Shown here: positions 6,245 to 57,460 of the stretch, piece by piece
How positions within the stretch are numbered: the first letter of the stretch is position 1
How the letters are laid out: every line of letters starts with the position of its first letter
NCBI RefSeq assembly: GCF_001507555.1
Contig: NZ_LQBO01000001.1
Span: forward strand, 2,170,001 to 2,234,000
From: Thiomicrospira sp. XS5
Lineage (GTDB): Bacteria; Pseudomonadota; Gammaproteobacteria; Thiomicrospirales; Thiomicrospiraceae
Length of the DNA stretch: 64,000 nt
Direction: 5' to 3'
Made by a program: the position numbers and the translations under genes
Notes under the pieces: model-generated
What the model was told of the DNA's origin: nothing
The model's input: only the letters and a program-made list of their open reading frames with translations
Databases searched by the model: none

Positions 6245-7027
6245 TTAATCGATAATGGTATCCGCGTCGCTTTTCGACCCAGGTTCCAATGACAGCTGGT
6301 CGAAGTAATAATGCGACAAGGCGATGACCGCCAGTACCGGTGCGAAAAAGCTGATAATCGGAAACACACTCAAGGCATAGAGCACCCCGACGGCAAAAGT
6401 CGGCGGCCAGTTCGTCAGCGGTTTCAAGCGGCTGAACAAGGCTTCCGGTAGAATCACCTGCCCCACATCCAGCACCACGGCATAACGGAAAAACAAGAAC
6501 CCGATCAACCAAAACCACACCACATTGATGAGCGGCACAAACAGCAGCGGGAAGGTCACAATCAACAACAGCAGAATCAACAACCCGAATTTCACCAATT
6601 TCCAAATCATGCCCAACATCGAGCCGTGACCGTGGTATTCGGTGTGCGGATAATGCTTGTCATGCACCGCTTTCACCAACGAATCGGTCATAAAGCCGGT
6701 CACGATCATCGCGAACAACAGCACCAGATAACTGCCGAGCACAATGCCCAGCAACCCGGCAATCACCGCGACAGTAAAGCCCAAAAACCAGAGCACCAAT
6801 CCGCCCACCAACGGAATCGCACCGATGGTGTTCTCGGCTTGAAGCTTCCAGCTTTCAAAATCCTGTACAAACGCACTCTGCGTAATAAAGTCACTCGTCA
6901 ACAACAGGCCGAATACGCCATACCCCATCAACGAGACCAAAACCAGGCCAACGGCGAACGGAATAAACAGCCGAATCAGAATGGCCGGTTCTTTCAAATC
7001 GACCAGAGTTTTCCAGAGCAATGTCAT
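6245..7027 (-). CDS. EI24-domain (CysZ-like) integral membrane protein
   Basis: The 260-residue protein has about six hydrophobic segments and the EI24/CysZ pattern: an N-terminal helix pair, a long hydrophobic hairpin near residues 70-115, a hydrophilic histidine-containing loop (YPHTEYHGHG near 128), then a pair of helices ending with FFRYAVVLDVG. CysZ members are sulfate permeases, but many EI24 proteins are uncharacterised and no cys genes adjoin it, so transport of sulfate is not claimed. Its ATG overlaps the upstream aldehyde dehydrogenase stop in TAATG, a classic translational-coupling arrangement, so the two genes form an operon. Confidence 0.78.
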   Translation of the reverse strand: MTLLWKTLVDLKEPAILIRLFIPFAVGLVLVSLMGYGVFGLLLTSDFITQSAFVQDFESWKLQAENTIGAIPLVGGLVLWFLGFTVAVIAGLLGIVLGSYLVLLFAMIVTGFMTDSLVKAVHDKHYPHTEYHGHGSMLGMIWKLVKFGLLILLLLIVTFPLLFVPLINVVWFWLIGFLFFRYAVVLDVGQVILPEALFSRLKPLTNWPPTFAVGVLYALSVFPIISFFAPVLAVIALSHYYFDQLSLEPGSKSDADTIID

Positions 7028-9864: not shown

Positions 9865-11199
9865 TTAACGCGTAAAGGTCAGGCGTTGTCCTGGCGTAAA
9901 CTCGGCGAACTGGCCTTGGTGATACTTCAATTCACCATTGACGATGGTGCTCATCACCGACGATTTGAAGGTGTGACCTTCCCAAGGCGACCAACCGCAT
10001 TGATAAAGGTTGTTGTCACGCGTGTCGGTGTGCGGAAGATTCATATCCACCAGCACCAAGTCGGCGGCATAGCCTTCGCGGATAAAGCCGCGTTTTTCAA
10101 TCTGGTAACGGATGGCGACGTTGTGCGAGGTTTTCTGCACCACGGTTTCCAAATCGAACACCCCGTCATGCACCATATCCAGCAAGGCCGTTAACGATTG
10201 TTGCACCTGCGGCAACCCGGCTGGCGTGCCGAAGTAGGAATCGCTTTGTTTTTCCTCCCAGGTGTGCGGCGCATGGTCGGTGGCAATGATGTCGATCCGC
10301 CCTTCTTTCACCGCTTGGCGAATGGCATCGCGGTCGGATGGCTGTTTAATGGCCGGGTTACATTTGATCAAGCCGCCTTTTTCCGCGTAATCGTCGGCGG
10401 TAAACCACAAATGATGCACACAGGCTTCGGCGGTGATTTTTTTGCCCTCAACCGACCCCGGCGCAAACAGTGCCATTTCTTCGGCGGTGGTCAAATGCAG
10501 AATGTGTAAATCGGCACCGGTTTTCTTCGCTAGATCCACCGCAAAAGACGACGACTTGTAACAGGCTTCCCGACAACGAATGTCCGGATGGTATTGCATT
10601 GGAATCGCATCACCGTATTTTTCGCGATACAAGGCTTCCTGCTCTTTAATCATCGGTGTGTCTTCGCAATGCGTGGTAATCAATGTTGGGCTGTGGGTAA
10701 AAATATCGGTCAGCGCCTGTTCGCGATCCACCAGCATGTTCCCGGTGGAGGCTCCCATGAAAATCTTCACCCCGCAGGTCGCGTTCGGGTCCAAGGCTTT
10801 GAGTTCTTCAATGTTGTCGTTGGTGGCGCCCAGATAAAACGAGTGATTGGCCCAAGCGGTTTTGGCGGCCAGTTCGTACTTGGCTTCCAAATTTTCCAAC
10901 GTGGTGGTGGTCGGTTTCACGTTCGGCATGTCCATAAAGGTCGTTGTACCACCCGCGATCGCCGCTTTCGATTCCGTGGCGATACTGCCTTTGGCCGGGA
11001 ACCCTGGGTCGCGAAAATGCACTTGATCATCGATAAACCCAGGCAGTAAATGTTGGCCGGCCGCGTCGATGGTCACGTCCGCCGCCACCGACAACTGCGG
11101 TGCGATTTGCGCAATCACGCCATCTTGAATGAACACATCAGCTTCGAAAATTCGGCCTTCGTTAACGACTTTAGCTTGGGTAATCAATAAACTTTTCAT
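9865..11199 (-). CDS. pyrC: Dihydroorotase (class I type)
   Basis: Dihydroorotase cyclises N-carbamoyl-aspartate to dihydroorotate in de novo pyrimidine synthesis. The 444-residue protein shows the amidohydrolase metal motif near residue 58 (DQVHFRDPG), a GVKIFMGASTG motif whose lysine is the likely carboxylated metal ligand, a histidine in THCED, another in LHILHLTTAEE, and the late IIATDHAPH motif. The length and the pattern DPGFPAKGSIATESKAAIAGG suit the longer class I enzymes rather than the short E. coli class II enzyme. It is monocistronic; pyrE is about 6.5 kb away on the other strand. Confidence 0.93.
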   Translation of the reverse strand: MKSLLITQAKVVNEGRIFEADVFIQDGVIAQIAPQLSVAADVTIDAAGQHLLPGFIDDQVHFRDPGFPAKGSIATESKAAIAGGTTTFMDMPNVKPTTTTLENLEAKYELAAKTAWANHSFYLGATNDNIEELKALDPNATCGVKIFMGASTGNMLVDREQALTDIFTHSPTLITTHCEDTPMIKEQEALYREKYGDAIPMQYHPDIRCREACYKSSSFAVDLAKKTGADLHILHLTTAEEMALFAPGSVEGKKITAEACVHHLWFTADDYAEKGGLIKCNPAIKQPSDRDAIRQAVKEGRIDIIATDHAPHTWEEKQSDSYFGTPAGLPQVQQSLTALLDMVHDGVFDLETVVQKTSHNVAIRYQIEKRGFIREGYAADLVLVDMNLPHTDTRDNNLYQCGWSPWEGHTFKSSVMSTIVNGELKYHQGQFAEFTPGQRLTFTR

Positions 11200-11727: not shown

Positions 11728-11859
11728 GCCTATCACGGACGGTCACCTGAGCAGTTCCATACTGAATACCACTTGTAAATCCGGGTAGAAAGAGGAAAAT
11801 ATTAAGGTTGGCAGCCACCCAACTGCACAGTCGACCATAACAACAATACAGAGGACGCC

Positions 11860-13971
11860 ATGGAAACCACAACGACGATTGACACCCCATACATCAACCA
11901 AGAAAAAAGCTTACTTGAATTCAACCGTCGTGTTCTGGCCCAAGCGAAAAACCCCGACATCCCATTGTTGGAACGCCTGAAATTCCTGTGTATTTCCAGC
12001 AGCAATATGGACGAATTCTTTGAGGTGCGCCTCGCCAGCCTGTATGAGTTATGCAATGATCCGTCCGCGCGCACCCAACCGGACAACCGGACACCACAGG
12101 ATGCCATCGAACTGCTGTCGGACGTGGCCCACGAACTCGTGGACGACCAATACCACACCCTTAATAACATTCTGATTCCCGAACTGGAAAAAGAAGATGT
12201 TCGTTTTTTGCGCCGCAACCACTGGACCGATCAGCAAAAAGAATGGATCCGCAATTATTTCATCAAATCCTTGCAGCCGGTGATGAGTCCAATGGGCTTA
12301 GATCCGTCACACCCCTTCCCGAGACTGCTGAACAAAAGTTTGAATTTCATTGTGTCACTGGAAGGCAAAGACGCTTTCGGCCGCTCCAACGGGCTGGCCA
12401 TCGTACAGGTACCACGCTCCTTACCGCGCATCATCAAACTGCCGCCGGAAGCCACCGACGGGCCGAATGACTTTGTGTTCCTGTCATCCGTTTTGCACTC
12501 CAATGTGTCTAACCTTTTCCCGGGCATGACCGTCACCGGCTGCCACCAGTTCCGCATCACCCGCAACACCAACCTCTTCATCGATGAAGAGGAAGTGGAC
12601 GACATCATGAGCGCACTGGAAGGCGAATTGAGCAGCCGCCAATACGGCGGAGCGATTCGCTTGGAAGTCTCCGACAAGTGCCCGAAAAATATGTACGAAT
12701 ACTTGATGGATCGTTTCAACTTGAACGAAGAACAACTCTATCAGGTCAACGGTCCGGTCAACCTGCACCGCCTTGATGCCGTGCCGGATTTGGCCAAACG
12801 ACCAGACCTGCTGTTCGAGCCTTATTCGCCCAGACAATTGACGGTCAAGGAAGCCAAACAAGGTGCCTTCAAACTCTTTACCCGCAATAAAGCGCCGCAA
12901 ACCCTGTTTGATCAAATTCAACAGCGCGATATTTTATTGCACCACCCGTATGATTCTTTCACACCGGTCATCGAATTCCTGCAACAGGCCGCTAAAGACC
13001 CGAATGTATTGGCCATTCGCATGACCCTTTACCGAACCGGTGAAAAATCGGCTATTATCGACGCCTTGGAAAAAGCCGCCAAAAACGGCAAAGAAGTCAC
13101 CGCCGTGGTGGAGCTGCGAGCCCGCTTCGACGAAGACAACAACATTATCCAGGCCAACCGTCTGCAAGATGCCGGGGTGAATGTGGTCTACGGTGTGGTC
13201 GGGTATAAAACCCACGCCAAGATGATTCTGGTGGTACGCCGTGAAGGTGAACAGTTACGCCATTACGTGCACCTCGGCACCGGTAACTATCACCACATCA
13301 CCACGCGTTTTTACACCGACTTCGGATTGTTCTCCGCCAACCCGGACATGGGACGGGACGTCTCGAAAATTTTCCAGCAATTGACCAGCCTGGGCGACAC
13401 CAAAAACCTACAGGTTTTATTACAGTCACCGTTTACCTTACAAAGCGGTATGGTTGAGCGCATTCAACGTGAAGCGGAAAACGCCCGCCAAGGCAAATCC
13501 TCCCGCATCATTGCGAAAATGAACGGTCTGCAGGAAAAAAGCATGATCGACGCCCTCTGTGAAGCCTCTCAGGCGGGCGTACAAATCGACTTGATTGTAC
13601 GCGGCATCTGCAGCTTGCGCCCGGGTGTGCCCGGCTTGTCGGAAAATATCACCGTCACCAGCATTATCGGGCGCTTTCTGGAACACCATCGGGTTTATTA
13701 TTTTGAAAACAGCCAAGGCGAACCGGAACTCTTTTGCTCCAGCGCCGACTGGATGCGCCGCAATCTGTTCTCACGCGTGGAAACCTGCTTCCCGATTTTA
13801 GACAAGAAGCACTTCCAGCAAGTTTATACCGAAGGGCTGGCCATCTACCTGAACGACAACACCGGTGCCTGGCAACTGCAAGCCGACGGTACCTACACTC
13901 AAAAAACACCGGCCGACGGCGAAGAAGCCTTCAACGCCCAACGCTGGTTGATTGAAAAATATTCCAGTTAA
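11860..13971 (+). CDS. ppk1: Polyphosphate kinase 1
   Basis: PPK1 reversibly transfers the ATP gamma phosphate to inorganic polyphosphate. The 703-residue protein is full length with the N-terminal domain (EKSLLEFNRRVLAQA, SSNMDEFFEVR), the head domain, and two phospholipase-D-like C domains. The autophosphorylated histidine is predicted at residue 452 in the motif KTHAKM, with the second conserved histidine at 471 in YVHLGTGNYH. Other conserved segments are RMTLYRTG and SSADWMRRNL. It precedes ppx by 179 bases on the same strand; the pair make and degrade polyphosphate. A candidate Pho box upstream would link expression to phosphate starvation. Confidence 0.96.
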   Translation: METTTTIDTPYINQEKSLLEFNRRVLAQAKNPDIPLLERLKFLCISSSNMDEFFEVRLASLYELCNDPSARTQPDNRTPQDAIELLSDVAHELVDDQYHTLNNILIPELEKEDVRFLRRNHWTDQQKEWIRNYFIKSLQPVMSPMGLDPSHPFPRLLNKSLNFIVSLEGKDAFGRSNGLAIVQVPRSLPRIIKLPPEATDGPNDFVFLSSVLHSNVSNLFPGMTVTGCHQFRITRNTNLFIDEEEVDDIMSALEGELSSRQYGGAIRLEVSDKCPKNMYEYLMDRFNLNEEQLYQVNGPVNLHRLDAVPDLAKRPDLLFEPYSPRQLTVKEAKQGAFKLFTRNKAPQTLFDQIQQRDILLHHPYDSFTPVIEFLQQAAKDPNVLAIRMTLYRTGEKSAIIDALEKAAKNGKEVTAVVELRARFDEDNNIIQANRLQDAGVNVVYGVVGYKTHAKMILVVRREGEQLRHYVHLGTGNYHHITTRFYTDFGLFSANPDMGRDVSKIFQQLTSLGDTKNLQVLLQSPFTLQSGMVERIQREAENARQGKSSRIIAKMNGLQEKSMIDALCEASQAGVQIDLIVRGICSLRPGVPGLSENITVTSIIGRFLEHHRVYYFENSQGEPELFCSSADWMRRNLFSRVETCFPILDKKHFQQVYTEGLAIYLNDNTGAWQLQADGTYTQKTPADGEEAFNAQRWLIEKYSS

Positions 13972-50051: not shown

Positions 50052-52745
<2,694 letters not shown>

Positions 52746-52783
52746 CTTCGCATCTTCGGAAAGGCTTTAAAGGAAAAGGAACA

Positions 52784-53581
52784 CTAATGCTTGAATACCT
52801 TCCAAGCAGACAAGAAAAGCAATACGGCCAATAACAATCCTAAACCTTGTGCTGATACCCAGCCAAGCATGGCTCCCCCGGCGATGGCACCGGCAATGGA
52901 GCCGACCGTCATCCAGATAAGTAGGTCACGCTCGCGCCGCAGTGCATGAAAGGCTTCAGCCTGACTATAACGATAAAACCCCACCAGCATGGTCGGCAGG
53001 CTTACCAACAACGACAGGCTGCCAGCGGTTTTTATATCAATGCCCTACAAAATAACAATAATCGGAATCAACAACTCACCACCGGCCACGCCCAAAACAG
53101 CCGCCACGATGCCAATCATCAGCCCGGCCAAAATGCCGACCAGCGTTTGTAACCAGGCCTGGTGAAACATCGGTTGCCCGGCGTCACCGAGCGGTGCCAA
53201 ATGTTCCCAGAGCATGACCACCGCCAAAGCCATCAACAGCATAAAAACCACACGATTCAACATTTTCGGTGCCAGCCGCATCACATAGCCAGCGGCGTAC
53301 CAGGCTCCGACGAGGCTGCCAGCCAGCAAATTCACCACCATTGACCAATGGGGTAGCAAACTGTCAAACGGAACACTGAACCCGCGTGAAAAAATGGAGG
53401 TCACCACCACAACCAAGCTCATGGCCTTATTGAGGATAATCGCCTCCAGCGTCGGCAAGTTGAACACCGCGACCAGCACTGGCATACGGAACTCGGCTCC
53501 GCCCAAGCCTATCAGTCCCCCCAGCAGACCGATGAGCGCGCCGAAAAAAGTCGCCAACCAGATTTTTTTGCCCAGTGTCAT
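52784..53581 (-). pseudogene. TSUP (TauE/SafE) permease gene interrupted by one in-frame TAG
   Basis: The first part (53581 to 53048) encodes 178 residues with GALIGLLGGLIGLGGAEFRMPVL, the first TSUP repeat, and ends GVAGGELLIPIIVIL before TAG at 53045-53047. The reading frame then continues without any shift: GIDIKTAGSLSLLVSLPTMLVGFYRYS and on to WKVFKH, exactly the sequence expected next in the second TSUP repeat. The full frame would be 265 residues. Only a single base change (for example from TAT, TAC, CAG or TTG) separates it from an intact gene. It is either a very recent pseudogene, a read-through gene or a sequencing error. It lies five bases after modC, so it belongs to the modBC operon and may move an oxyanion. 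Confidence 0.82.
53153..53162. repeat. CCAGGCCTGG palindrome inside the TSUP gene
   Basis: Exact copy, read on the minus strand as Gln-Ala-Trp in FHQAWLQTL. Confidence 0.85.
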
Positions 53582-53586
53582 CTGTG

Positions 53587-54687
53587 TTACTCCGTCACCG
53601 CGACCGATTTAATCAGGGCAAAAACCGCCAGGCCTGGCTGAATCTTCAGTCGTTCCGCCGAGTGTTGAGTCACTTCCGAAAACAGTTGCTGGCCGTCCGA
53701 CAAGCGCAAACGCACCAATAAACGGTGCTGACCTTGCGGAATCAGCTCGGTGACTTCCGCGGGAAAATGATTAATGATGCTCAGGTCTTTCGGGTCGGAC
53801 AGGGCCAAACTGACGTCCCGCGCCAACACCCGCACCCGAATCGTTTCCTTACCCCCCGGTACGGCTTCGGACAACCAAATGGTTTCGGTTTTCCCAAAGC
53901 GCGCCGGTTGTAAACCGTCCTGCATCGCCAACGGACTCGCCTGCAACACCGACACCGCGCCTTGCTCGTCAAACAACGGCGAGTCCGGACGCGCCAACGC
54001 CTGTTGCAACGTCTCGACGGTTTCAACACGACCGTTTTGCATGAACAGCACCCGGTCGGCCAAGCGCTCGACTTCCGCCGGTGCATGAGTGATGTAGAGC
54101 ACCGGCAGCTGGTAAGCGGTCACCAACTCTTCAATCAGCGTCAGCATCTCGGCCTTGGCGCGCCAATCCAATGCCGACAAGGGTTCGTCCATGCACAACA
54201 ATTTCGGACGCATCAACAACGCACGGGCAATCGCCACCCGCTGACGCTCGCCCCCGGACAAATACGTCACGGCACGGTCGAGTTTATCGGCAATGCCAAC
54301 CCGCTGCACAATCTCCTCAAAGCTTTCCGGTTTGATGCCTTTCGGCAGGCGCTTGACACCGTACATCAGATTTTGGCGTACCGTCATATGCGGAAACAGC
54401 GCCGCATCTTGAAACACGAAACCGATGTGGCGCTTTCGGGTTGGCAAAACACTGGCTCCGGCTTGCCAAATCTCACCACCCACTGATAAATTCCCTTCGG
54501 TGCGCTTATCCAAGCCGCTGATGGCACGCAATAACGTACTTTTACCACTGCCGGAACGGCCGAACAACACGGTCACGCCCTGCAATGGAATCTCAAACGG
54601 CCCGGACTCGAGATAAAAGTCCCCCAATTCGAGTTTGAGGTTCCCTTGCATCAACAATTGGCTTGGTGTGCTCTGCATTGAATCCAT
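53587..54687 (-). CDS. modC: Molybdate ABC transporter ATP-binding protein ModC
   Basis: ModC powers molybdate import. The 366-residue protein has Walker A GRSGSGKSTLL near residue 43, the Q-loop QDAALFPHMTV, ABC signature LSGGERQRVAIARALL near 144, Walker B LLCMDEPLSALD and the H-loop ITHAPAEV. A C-terminal regulatory MOP/TOBE-type region follows (about 295-366, with SRVLARDVSLALSDPKDLSI-like sequence). It lies three bases after modB. A CCAGGCCTGG copy is near its 3' end. Confidence 0.94.
   Translation of the reverse strand: MDSMQSTPSQLLMQGNLKLELGDFYLESGPFEIPLQGVTVLFGRSGSGKSTLLRAISGLDKRTEGNLSVGGEIWQAGASVLPTRKRHIGFVFQDAALFPHMTVRQNLMYGVKRLPKGIKPESFEEIVQRVGIADKLDRAVTYLSGGERQRVAIARALLMRPKLLCMDEPLSALDWRAKAEMLTLIEELVTAYQLPVLYITHAPAEVERLADRVLFMQNGRVETVETLQQALARPDSPLFDEQGAVSVLQASPLAMQDGLQPARFGKTETIWLSEAVPGGKETIRVRVLARDVSLALSDPKDLSIINHFPAEVTELIPQGQHRLLVRLRLSDGQQLFSEVTQHSAERLKIQPGLAVFALIKSVAVTE
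53628..53637. repeat. CCAGGCCTGG palindrome inside modC
   Basis: Exact copy, read on the minus strand in the frame CCA-GGC-CTG-G as Pro-Gly-Leu in IQPGLAVF. Confidence 0.85.
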
Positions 54688-54690
54688 TCC

Positions 54691-55386
54691 TTACCCCACC
54701 TTCACACCGAAACGGCGGTTCAGGCCGTACACCAACATCAGAACCGTCAACGCGAAAATCAACATCATCGCCGACAGGATATGCGCTTGGTCGTATTCCA
54801 AACTTTCCACATGATCGAAAATATCAATTGAAACCATACGGGTTTCACCCGGAATATTCCCCCCGACCATCAGCACCACACCAAACTCGCCGACGGTGTG
54901 CGCAAACGACAAGGTCGCCGCCACCAAGATGCCTCGGCGCGACAAGGGCAAAACAATGGTCCAGAAACGGTCCAGAAACGACGCTCGCATGGTCGCGGCC
55001 GCGTCCAGCAGACGATGTGGAATGTTTTCAAAGGCATGCATCAGCGGTTGAATGGCAAAGGGTAATGAATAAAACACCGACCCAATCACCAGACCGGTTT
55101 TACTGAAGGTCAATTGCCCCTCGAAACCGAACCAGCGCAACACTTCGGTCACGGTACCGTTGGGGTTGAACAAAATCAGTAGGTAAAACCCCAATACCGT
55201 CGGCGGCAACACCAATGGCAAGGCCACCAGCGCTTCCAAAAACACCTTATTGGACGAGCGCATTTGCGCCATCCACCAGGCCAAAGGCGTCCCCAAGACC
55301 AATAAAACGATGGTCGTCATGGTCGCTACCTCCAGCGTCAGCCAGATCGGTTGCAAATTGATTTCCGTACCGAAGATTTCCAACAT
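54691..55386 (-). CDS. modB: Molybdate ABC transporter permease ModB
   Basis: The 231-residue protein has five to six transmembrane segments and the inner-membrane permease signature region AATMRASFLDRFWTIVLPLSRRGILVAA, seen in parts, near residues 130-157 (the EAA loop that contacts ModC). It opens LQPIWLTLEVATMTTIVLLVLGTPLAWW. It is followed at three bases by modC. Upstream, instead of modA directly, is a palindromic terminator (55410-55437) only 24 bases from the ATG, with AGAG as a modest ribosome site. Confidence 0.92.
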   Translation of the reverse strand: MLEIFGTEINLQPIWLTLEVATMTTIVLLVLGTPLAWWMAQMRSSNKVFLEALVALPLVLPPTVLGFYLLILFNPNGTVTEVLRWFGFEGQLTFSKTGLVIGSVFYSLPFAIQPLMHAFENIPHRLLDAAATMRASFLDRFWTIVLPLSRRGILVAATLSFAHTVGEFGVVLMVGGNIPGETRMVSIDIFDHVESLEYDQAHILSAMMLIFALTVLMLVYGLNRRFGVKVG

Positions 55387-55623: not shown

Positions 55624-56385
55624 TTAGCTGACGTTATAGCCATAACGTTTGATAATCTCGATGGCTTTCGGTGTCTTGATAAACGCCATAAAGGCTTTGG
55701 CGGCCGCATTCTTTTCACCTTGTTTAGTCAGCAGCGCGCCTTGGTTAATCGGCTTATAGTCCGACTGCGGTACCACCCAGTATTGACCTTTTTGGTACAC
55801 CGGACTTTGCGGATCCACCACTTGCGACATGGCAACAAACCCGATTTCGGCATTGCCGGTGGCGACGTATTGGAAAGCGTGAGCGATGCTTTCACCATTG
55901 ACGATTTTCGCTTTCACGTCCTGATACAGGCCTTCTTTTTTCAAAAACGCCACGGCACGTTCACCGTAAGGCGCGGTTTTCGGGTTAGCGACCGCCAGAT
56001 GGTTGTATTGTTTCGCTTTCAAAACCTGAATGGGGCTGGTTTTCACCGGAAACTTCGCGCTGTACAGCACGATTTGACCCTGCGCATAGACAAAATAGCT
56101 GTCGGCCACACCGATGCCATCGTCAATGGTTTTTTTCGGGCGACGCTCGTCGGCACCGAAGAAGGCATCGAAAGGCGCGCCGTTTTTGATTTGAGCATAG
56201 AGCTTACCGGTCGGCCCGAACGAGAACTTCACCTGATGGCCGGTTTCCTTTTCAAACACCTTACCCACCTCTTCGATGGTTTTGGTGAAATTGGCTGCCA
56301 CCGCAATTTTAGCGGTTTCCGCATACGCCATCGAGGCGCTCAAAACACCCACAGCTAAGGCCAGGGTACGAATCATCATTTTCAT
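55624..56385 (-). CDS. modA: Molybdate ABC transporter substrate-binding protein ModA
   Basis: The 253-residue protein has a signal peptide (cleavage after AYAE region) and ModA landmarks: IAVAANFTKTIEEVGKVFEKETG, FSFGPTGKLYAQIKNGAPFDAFFGADE in parts, NPKTAPYGERA and the late IEIIKRYGY. It captures molybdate or tungstate in the periplasm. GGAG lies eight bases before the ATG at 56385. Its own transcript can end at the terminator 186 bases downstream, which would give more ModA than ModBC. Two ATACATAT repeats upstream are a candidate ModE site. Confidence 0.93.
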   Translation of the reverse strand: MKMMIRTLALAVGVLSASMAYAETAKIAVAANFTKTIEEVGKVFEKETGHQVKFSFGPTGKLYAQIKNGAPFDAFFGADERRPKKTIDDGIGVADSYFVYAQGQIVLYSAKFPVKTSPIQVLKAKQYNHLAVANPKTAPYGERAVAFLKKEGLYQDVKAKIVNGESIAHAFQYVATGNAEIGFVAMSQVVDPQSPVYQKGQYWVVPQSDYKPINQGALLTKQGEKNAAAKAFMAFIKTPKAIEIIKRYGYNVS

Positions 56386-56456: not shown

Positions 56457-57269
56457 TCAGTCGGAAACCGCCAACAATACATGACTGGCTTTGACCAGGG
56501 CGCAACATCTTGCCCCCACGGCCAGCCCCAAATTCTCGACACTCTGGTTTGTCACGATGGCAGAAATCATTTGTTCCCCTTCCAGCTGGATGGACACGTC
56601 ACTGTTGACGGCGCCTTCATCCAATTTAGTGACCACACCGCAGAACTGATTTCGCGCGCTGGTTTTCACCGTGCCGTTCAAGTCTTCGGTCAGAATCACC
56701 CAACTGGCTTTAATCAGGGCATACGCATCGGAACCGACTTCCAGCCCCAGACGTTCCAAACTGTCCAACGTAATCTGCGCGATCACTTCGTTACCTTGCC
56801 CCACCGATAGGGTCACCTCACAATTCACCGCCCCCTTTTCAATTTCGGTAACGGTTCCGTGGAACAGATTTCGTGCACTTGTTTTCATGGAAATTTTCCT
56901 CATTAATTCCAATTGACTGAGCATGTTCGGCGACATCGCCTCCAGCTCCCGCATCCAATGTTGCATTTGTTCATTGAATAAGCGATAGGCCGCCAACAAG
57001 GCTTCACCGGCTTGGGTCAACACCATGCCGCCGCCGCCAGCGCCGCCTTTCTGGGTGTGCACCAACGGCTCTTCCGCCAGCTGATTCATGGCCTCAATGG
57101 CTTGCCAGGCGCCTTTGTAACTCATCCCACAAGCTTTCGCCGCCGCCGATAGGGAACCCAGTGATTCGATCTTGTTCAGCAGTTCCAAACGGCGCTGCCC
57201 GGAGCGAGACTGCTTGCTGCCCATCAAGAAAGATTGCACGAGCTGTTCGGGGAGATTGGATGCGTTCAA
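56457..57269 (-). CDS. modE: Molybdate-responsive transcriptional regulator ModE
   Basis: ModE represses molybdate transport genes when bound to molybdate. I place the start at a TTG (57267-57269) because AAGAAGG lies seven bases upstream and the length then suits E. coli ModE; the ATG at 57311 falls inside a promoter -10 box. The 270-residue protein has an N-terminal winged helix (SLSAAAKACGMSYKGAWQAIEAMNQL, in parts; the glycine-rich wing GGAGGGGMVLT) and two Mop domains, each opening SARNLFHG or SARNQFCG (about 130-200 and 200-268). The gene lies just upstream of modA on the same strand, 71 bases away. Confidence 0.9.
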   Translation of the reverse strand: MNASNLPEQLVQSFLMGSKQSRSGQRRLELLNKIESLGSLSAAAKACGMSYKGAWQAIEAMNQLAEEPLVHTQKGGAGGGGMVLTQAGEALLAAYRLFNEQMQHWMRELEAMSPNMLSQLELMRKISMKTSARNLFHGTVTEIEKGAVNCEVTLSVGQGNEVIAQITLDSLERLGLEVGSDAYALIKASWVILTEDLNGTVKTSARNQFCGVVTKLDEGAVNSDVSIQLEGEQMISAIVTNQSVENLGLAVGARCCALVKASHVLLAVSD

Positions 57270-57309
57270 ATGTCCGGCCTTCTTTATAACTTTAAGTACA
57301 TAGCGAAGC

Positions 57310-57338
57310 ATTATAGTCGAGCAATTGACCAACCGCAA
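57310..57338 (-). promoter_or_regulatory. Sigma-70-type promoter for modE
   Basis: On the minus strand TTGCGG (57333-57338), a 17-base spacer and a perfect TATAAT (57310-57315). It would give a transcript start near 57303 and a leader of about 34 bases to the TTG start of modE. Confidence 0.7.
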
Positions 57339-57460
57339 CGCCCAAGCGTTCAAATTATTTAATCGAAGGATAAATAGGTGCCAAGAAGCCATCAGCCCTA
57401 CAATCGCAGTCAACCACCGTGTTAAGATATCCACATTCAAGTGCTATCTCAGGGACGACG

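Follow-up and report, generated by a model that had tools for sequence, protein, structure and literature searches.

An in-frame amber codon interrupts a TauE/TSUP permease gene beside the molybdate genes of Thiomicrospira sp. XS5

Results

A permease frame with one internal stop lies next to modC

The stretch of DNA analysed here (64,000 nucleotides of contig NZ_LQBO01000001.1 of Thiomicrospira sp. XS5, referred to as the window) carries on its minus strand, in this order, modE, modA, modB, modC and a gene for a permease of the TauE/SafE (TSUP) type. The modA (55624-56385), modB (54691-55386) and modC (53587-54687) genes are open frames that match TIGR01256, TIGR02141 and TIGR02142, respectively, above cut-off, and the modE-like regulator (56457-57440) contains HTH and Mop/TOBE domains. 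As listed, the modE ORF (57440-56457) starts with a TTG about 80 codons ahead of its first domain match, and the true start probably lies further inside it. The permease ATG, at 53581, is found 5 bases past the modC stop, and a GGAG seen by eye within the end of modC (53590-53593, minus strand) may be the ribosome-binding site of the permease gene. On its other side the permease gene meets a convergent gene for a P-type cation ATPase (50052-52745, plus strand).

Translation of positions 52784-53581 (minus strand) with TAG read as X yields 265 residues containing a single X, at position 179, followed by the natural stop of the gene, which is also a TAG (52784-52786). The internal TAG (minus strand, 53047-53045; CTA at 53045-53047 of the plus strand) is in frame with the ATG at 53581 and is the only internal stop of this 265-codon frame, which runs through it without a frameshift. 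The Pfam TauE model (PF01925, curated cut-off 32.6 bits) matches both the part upstream of the stop (53048-53581, residues 1-178, E 1.6e-16, 61.2 bits) and the 86 residues past it (52784-53044, E 4.1e-8, 33.6 bits), and the joined halves align without gaps over 261 residues, at 81.6% identity, to one open frame each in two relatives, G022 and G030. Since PF01925 matches either half and the joined halves give this ungapped alignment, the region is one gene with one stop rather than two frames that are adjacent by chance, in agreement with the original prediction of a TSUP permease gene split by a single in-frame amber codon. The cut-off of the family is thus exceeded on either side of the TAG, and the intact relative L004, of 265 aa, likewise has two matched stretches. 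The window copy differs from TauE/SafE permeases in its in-frame TAG: because the frame is halted at codon 179, no uninterrupted protein with both repeats is encoded, and we file it as a broken TauE/SafE gene, interrupted once by either mutation or error, and not as a working member of the family.

The stop position is a tryptophan codon in the closest relatives

A search for the permease among 62 genomes of the family (E<=1e-15) gave seven matches, the source genome of the window included. Four of the others belong to one sister genus (G022, G030, G015 and G019, 78-82% identical) and two to another (G060 and G071, 48-49% identical). A second search, in a set of 369 genomes from the class (E<=1e-20), added G361, G196, G130 (at two loci) and G206. 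Where the window gene has its TAG, the four relatives from the first sister genus have TGG (Trp), and the seven rows further away have Tyr (G361 and G206) or Phe (G060, G071, G196 and both copies of G130). A stop at this position occurs in none of the 11 rows from relatives (10 genomes) that cover it. A single G-to-A transition from TGG to TAG would be the simplest history. Judged against intact orthologues, the gene carries a disabling change of the kind that marks a pseudogene, with TAG facing TGG in G022, G030, G015 and G019.

We calculated dN/dS from Nei-Gojobori counts against G022 and G030, for each half of the gene separately. The ratios are crude, as dS is saturated (2.3 to 2.6), and come to 0.058 (G022) and 0.051 (G030) upstream of the stop and to 0.048 and 0.048 past it. 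Nor is dN higher past the stop (0.111 and 0.119) than upstream (0.131 and 0.133), and no second stop or frameshift was found in the permease frame. Because conservation does not drop from the upstream half to the half past the stop, the change would seem to be young, or else an error, and the dN/dS comparison is expected to give the same picture for either. The suggestion that the nonsense change is very recent is therefore supported by the single base that separates TAG from the TGG found in the four closest relatives, by the lack of any other lesion in the frame and by the constraint kept past the stop.

Genes compared with the nearest species are otherwise intact

The main rival to a nonsense mutation is a base-calling or assembly error, in which case codon 179 would be a sense codon in the living strain and the permease gene would be intact. 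Such an error would look identical to what is seen, a lone substitution with both halves fully conserved, and the evidence for the stop comes from a single draft assembly of the species, in 23 contigs. As a quality control, we turned to G002, the species closest to that of the window going by modB (93.5% identical, with 98% for the ATPase), and took from four stretches of this genome 67 ORFs with a minimum length of 90 aa, shorter overlapping ones dropped. Genes cut by the ends of these stretches, except modC and the BCCT gene, entered the comparison as partial sequences. Fifty of the 67 ORFs match the window at more than 60% identity. Four of the fifty have stops in the window; the other 46 have neither a stop nor a match broken in two, and 45 of these were placed within intact ORFs of the window, leaving unplaced one close to the window end. 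At least one among the 45 (11802-12218) shares positions with a longer ORF and might be an antisense frame as well.

The four frames with stops were considered as broken genes and rejected, since each runs antisense to a gene whose frame is open in the window as well as in G002. Three of these genes are identified by their Pfam matches, as an EI24/CysZ-type gene, a BCCT transporter gene and a DUF4156 gene, and the fourth is modC. The EI24/CysZ-type gene (6245-7027, minus strand) encodes a protein 100% identical to that of G002; its plus-strand antisense frame is open for 261 codons in G002 and has one stop in the window.

The window is not riddled with errors. That no other window gene compared with G002 has a stop or frameshift speaks against a generally poor assembly, but it says nothing certain on the TAG base, and the control leaves this lone base unproven. 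Against an error stands also the occurrence of damaged copies of the same gene in three other genomes, as described below, which makes a real lesion unsurprising. On balance, we consider an error rather improbable.

The permease gene is patchily distributed and repeatedly damaged

In G002, the place between the ATPase gene and modC (L114:5664-5753, against 52745-53587 of the window) gave no permease match, although the two neighbours have the same arrangement there, and the 10 other genomes of the genus that were searched also gave none at E<=1e-15. The absence from G002 may reflect either a loss there or a gain in the lineage of the window; the similarity of the permease to G022 and G030 falls between those of modB and modC, with dS saturated.

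We sought the gene in 24 stretches around mod genes (4 + 20), and remnants of it within these same stretches. The permease gene of G015 has a 102-nt in-frame deletion and that of G019 an 82-nt frameshifting deletion, which could be an assembly fault since this genome is metagenome-assembled. G082 retains an 86-aa open remnant (L124:7700-7960), with 537 nt missing through two internal deletions, and G030 has, besides an intact gene, a heavily damaged piece of a second copy some 8 kb off (L034:16380-16770). The frame is open in G022, G030, G060 and G071 (265 aa in the first two). In total, the permease is damaged in four of the eight family genomes in which a trace of it was seen beside modC, the window included, and the lesion is different in each. 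This patchy presence, together with the damage in several genomes, suggests that the permease gene is accessory and that its loss seems to be tolerated in this bacterial family.

G015 has two modC-like genes (L035:4718-5557 and 10078-11142). The modC-like gene that adjoins the permease shares about 51% identity with the window modC, against about 79% for the permease upstream of the stop, a gap which hints that parts of the operon may have been exchanged.

To place the window gene among TSUP proteins, we built a tree from tblastn matches at 23 of the 37 permease loci; with G025 giving no match, G035 (49 aa) dropped for its length and the window gene added, the tree has 22 rows. The window gene groups with G015, G022 and G030 (100/100 support), within a group of 11 rows (99/99) that stands apart from the other TSUP proteins used; the placement of one long row, G130b, is unsure according to a warning from the program. 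Eight of the 11 rows adjoin mod genes, a further difference from TauE/SafE permeases at large, and the other three, from G361 and G130 (twice), gave no mod gene match within the available 6.7 to 8 kb of contig. The label "mod-linked" needs three changes on the tree and not one, and 3 of 500 shuffles do equally well. The mod link is thus clustered on the tree, but not to the point of showing a single origin. Our search of the literature on TSUP or TauE proteins with molybdate found no description of such a link or of its function; in the part of PMC5840216 available, the functions of TSUP proteins in the genomes treated are said not to be predictable, and mod linkage is not described in that part.

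Predicted consequences of the stop

The intact gene would be translated right after modC into a permease with two TauE repeats. With a G-to-A transition creating TAG at codon 179, translation would yield the first 178 residues and break off within the second TauE repeat, past the strongest hydrophobic stretch; a plain hydropathy scan places beyond the stop hydrophobic stretches at about 220-263, which are lost. Loss of function is probable for this shortened membrane protein. It could be argued that the first 178 aa work as a shortened transporter, or as a split one together with a re-initiated piece, since a TTG-started frame of 75 aa is present past the TAG and the much reduced 86-aa frame of G082 is still open. 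The stop, however, falls inside the second TauE repeat and not between the repeats, and the gene is split at this point in none of the 11 relative rows covering it, which leaves a working shortened or split transporter highly improbable.

Because the permease gene is downstream of modC and is followed by the convergent ATPase gene, the stop should not lower the expression of modABC. Expression of modABC left untouched in this way fits the persistence of the mutation, which could thus be maintained.

TAG is an ordinary stop codon in this genome

In-frame stop codons can be recoded by amber suppressor tRNAs, as pyrrolysine or by programmed read-through, and the permease gene resembles such cases in having an in-frame TAG with an open, conserved frame beyond it. 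The original prediction had accordingly raised suppression or read-through and proposed a search for a TAG suppressor among the tRNA genes. The genome has 42 tRNA genes (RF00005), none of them within the window, and ARAGORN reads the anticodons of all 42; none is CUA, UUA or UCA, although a tRNA unrecognised by RF00005 could be missed. The N-terminal domain of PylS (TIGR03912, a model of this domain alone) has no match in the genome, and among 14 genomes used as controls only Methanosarcina acetivorans gave a match. Of the 45 window ORFs holding a frame conserved in G002, 28 end with TAA, 13 with TGA and 4 with TAG, and three of these last four end with TAG in G002 as well. Since TAG terminates these 4 of 45 conserved ORFs and also the permease gene itself, it is an ordinary stop in this genome. 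The RNA past the stop folds no better than shuffled sequences (z -0.87, with 37 of 200 shuffles as good), and the stop, which programmed read-through would be expected to keep in orthologues, is absent from all 11 relative rows that cover its position. Full-length permease made by suppression or read-through of the TAG is therefore hardly credible, and the amber codon does not point to unusual decoding, a question that is settled as far as sequence allows.

Discussion

The best explanation of these observations is, with good confidence, that the accessory permease gene downstream of modC is dispensable and has recently acquired a nonsense mutation. Two counterpoints should be considered: the open frames in G022, G030, G060 and G071 suggest that the permease gene is not useless everywhere, and the part past the stop appears to be without decay of its own. 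Recent nonsense pseudogenes of bacterial accessory genes are of a known kind. The window gene resembles them in its one disabling substitution in a conserved gene, in its patchy presence and in the differing lesions of its relatives, and we see no difference from them save that the same gene is damaged in several genomes.

The case looks like an ordinary one of gene loss and not of an unusual reading of the genetic code, and the repeated damage to a mod-linked permease gene is its only mildly notable part. For annotation, the permease gene should be marked as disrupted, and it counts as one of several copies of this molybdate-linked permease that are damaged. As a speculation to which we give only a small chance, the modABC-linked TSUP permease might be a conditionally useful and sometimes costly partner of molybdate uptake, repeatedly gained and broken in the family as the supply of metal or sulfur changes, in which case the window would show the first step of one such loss.
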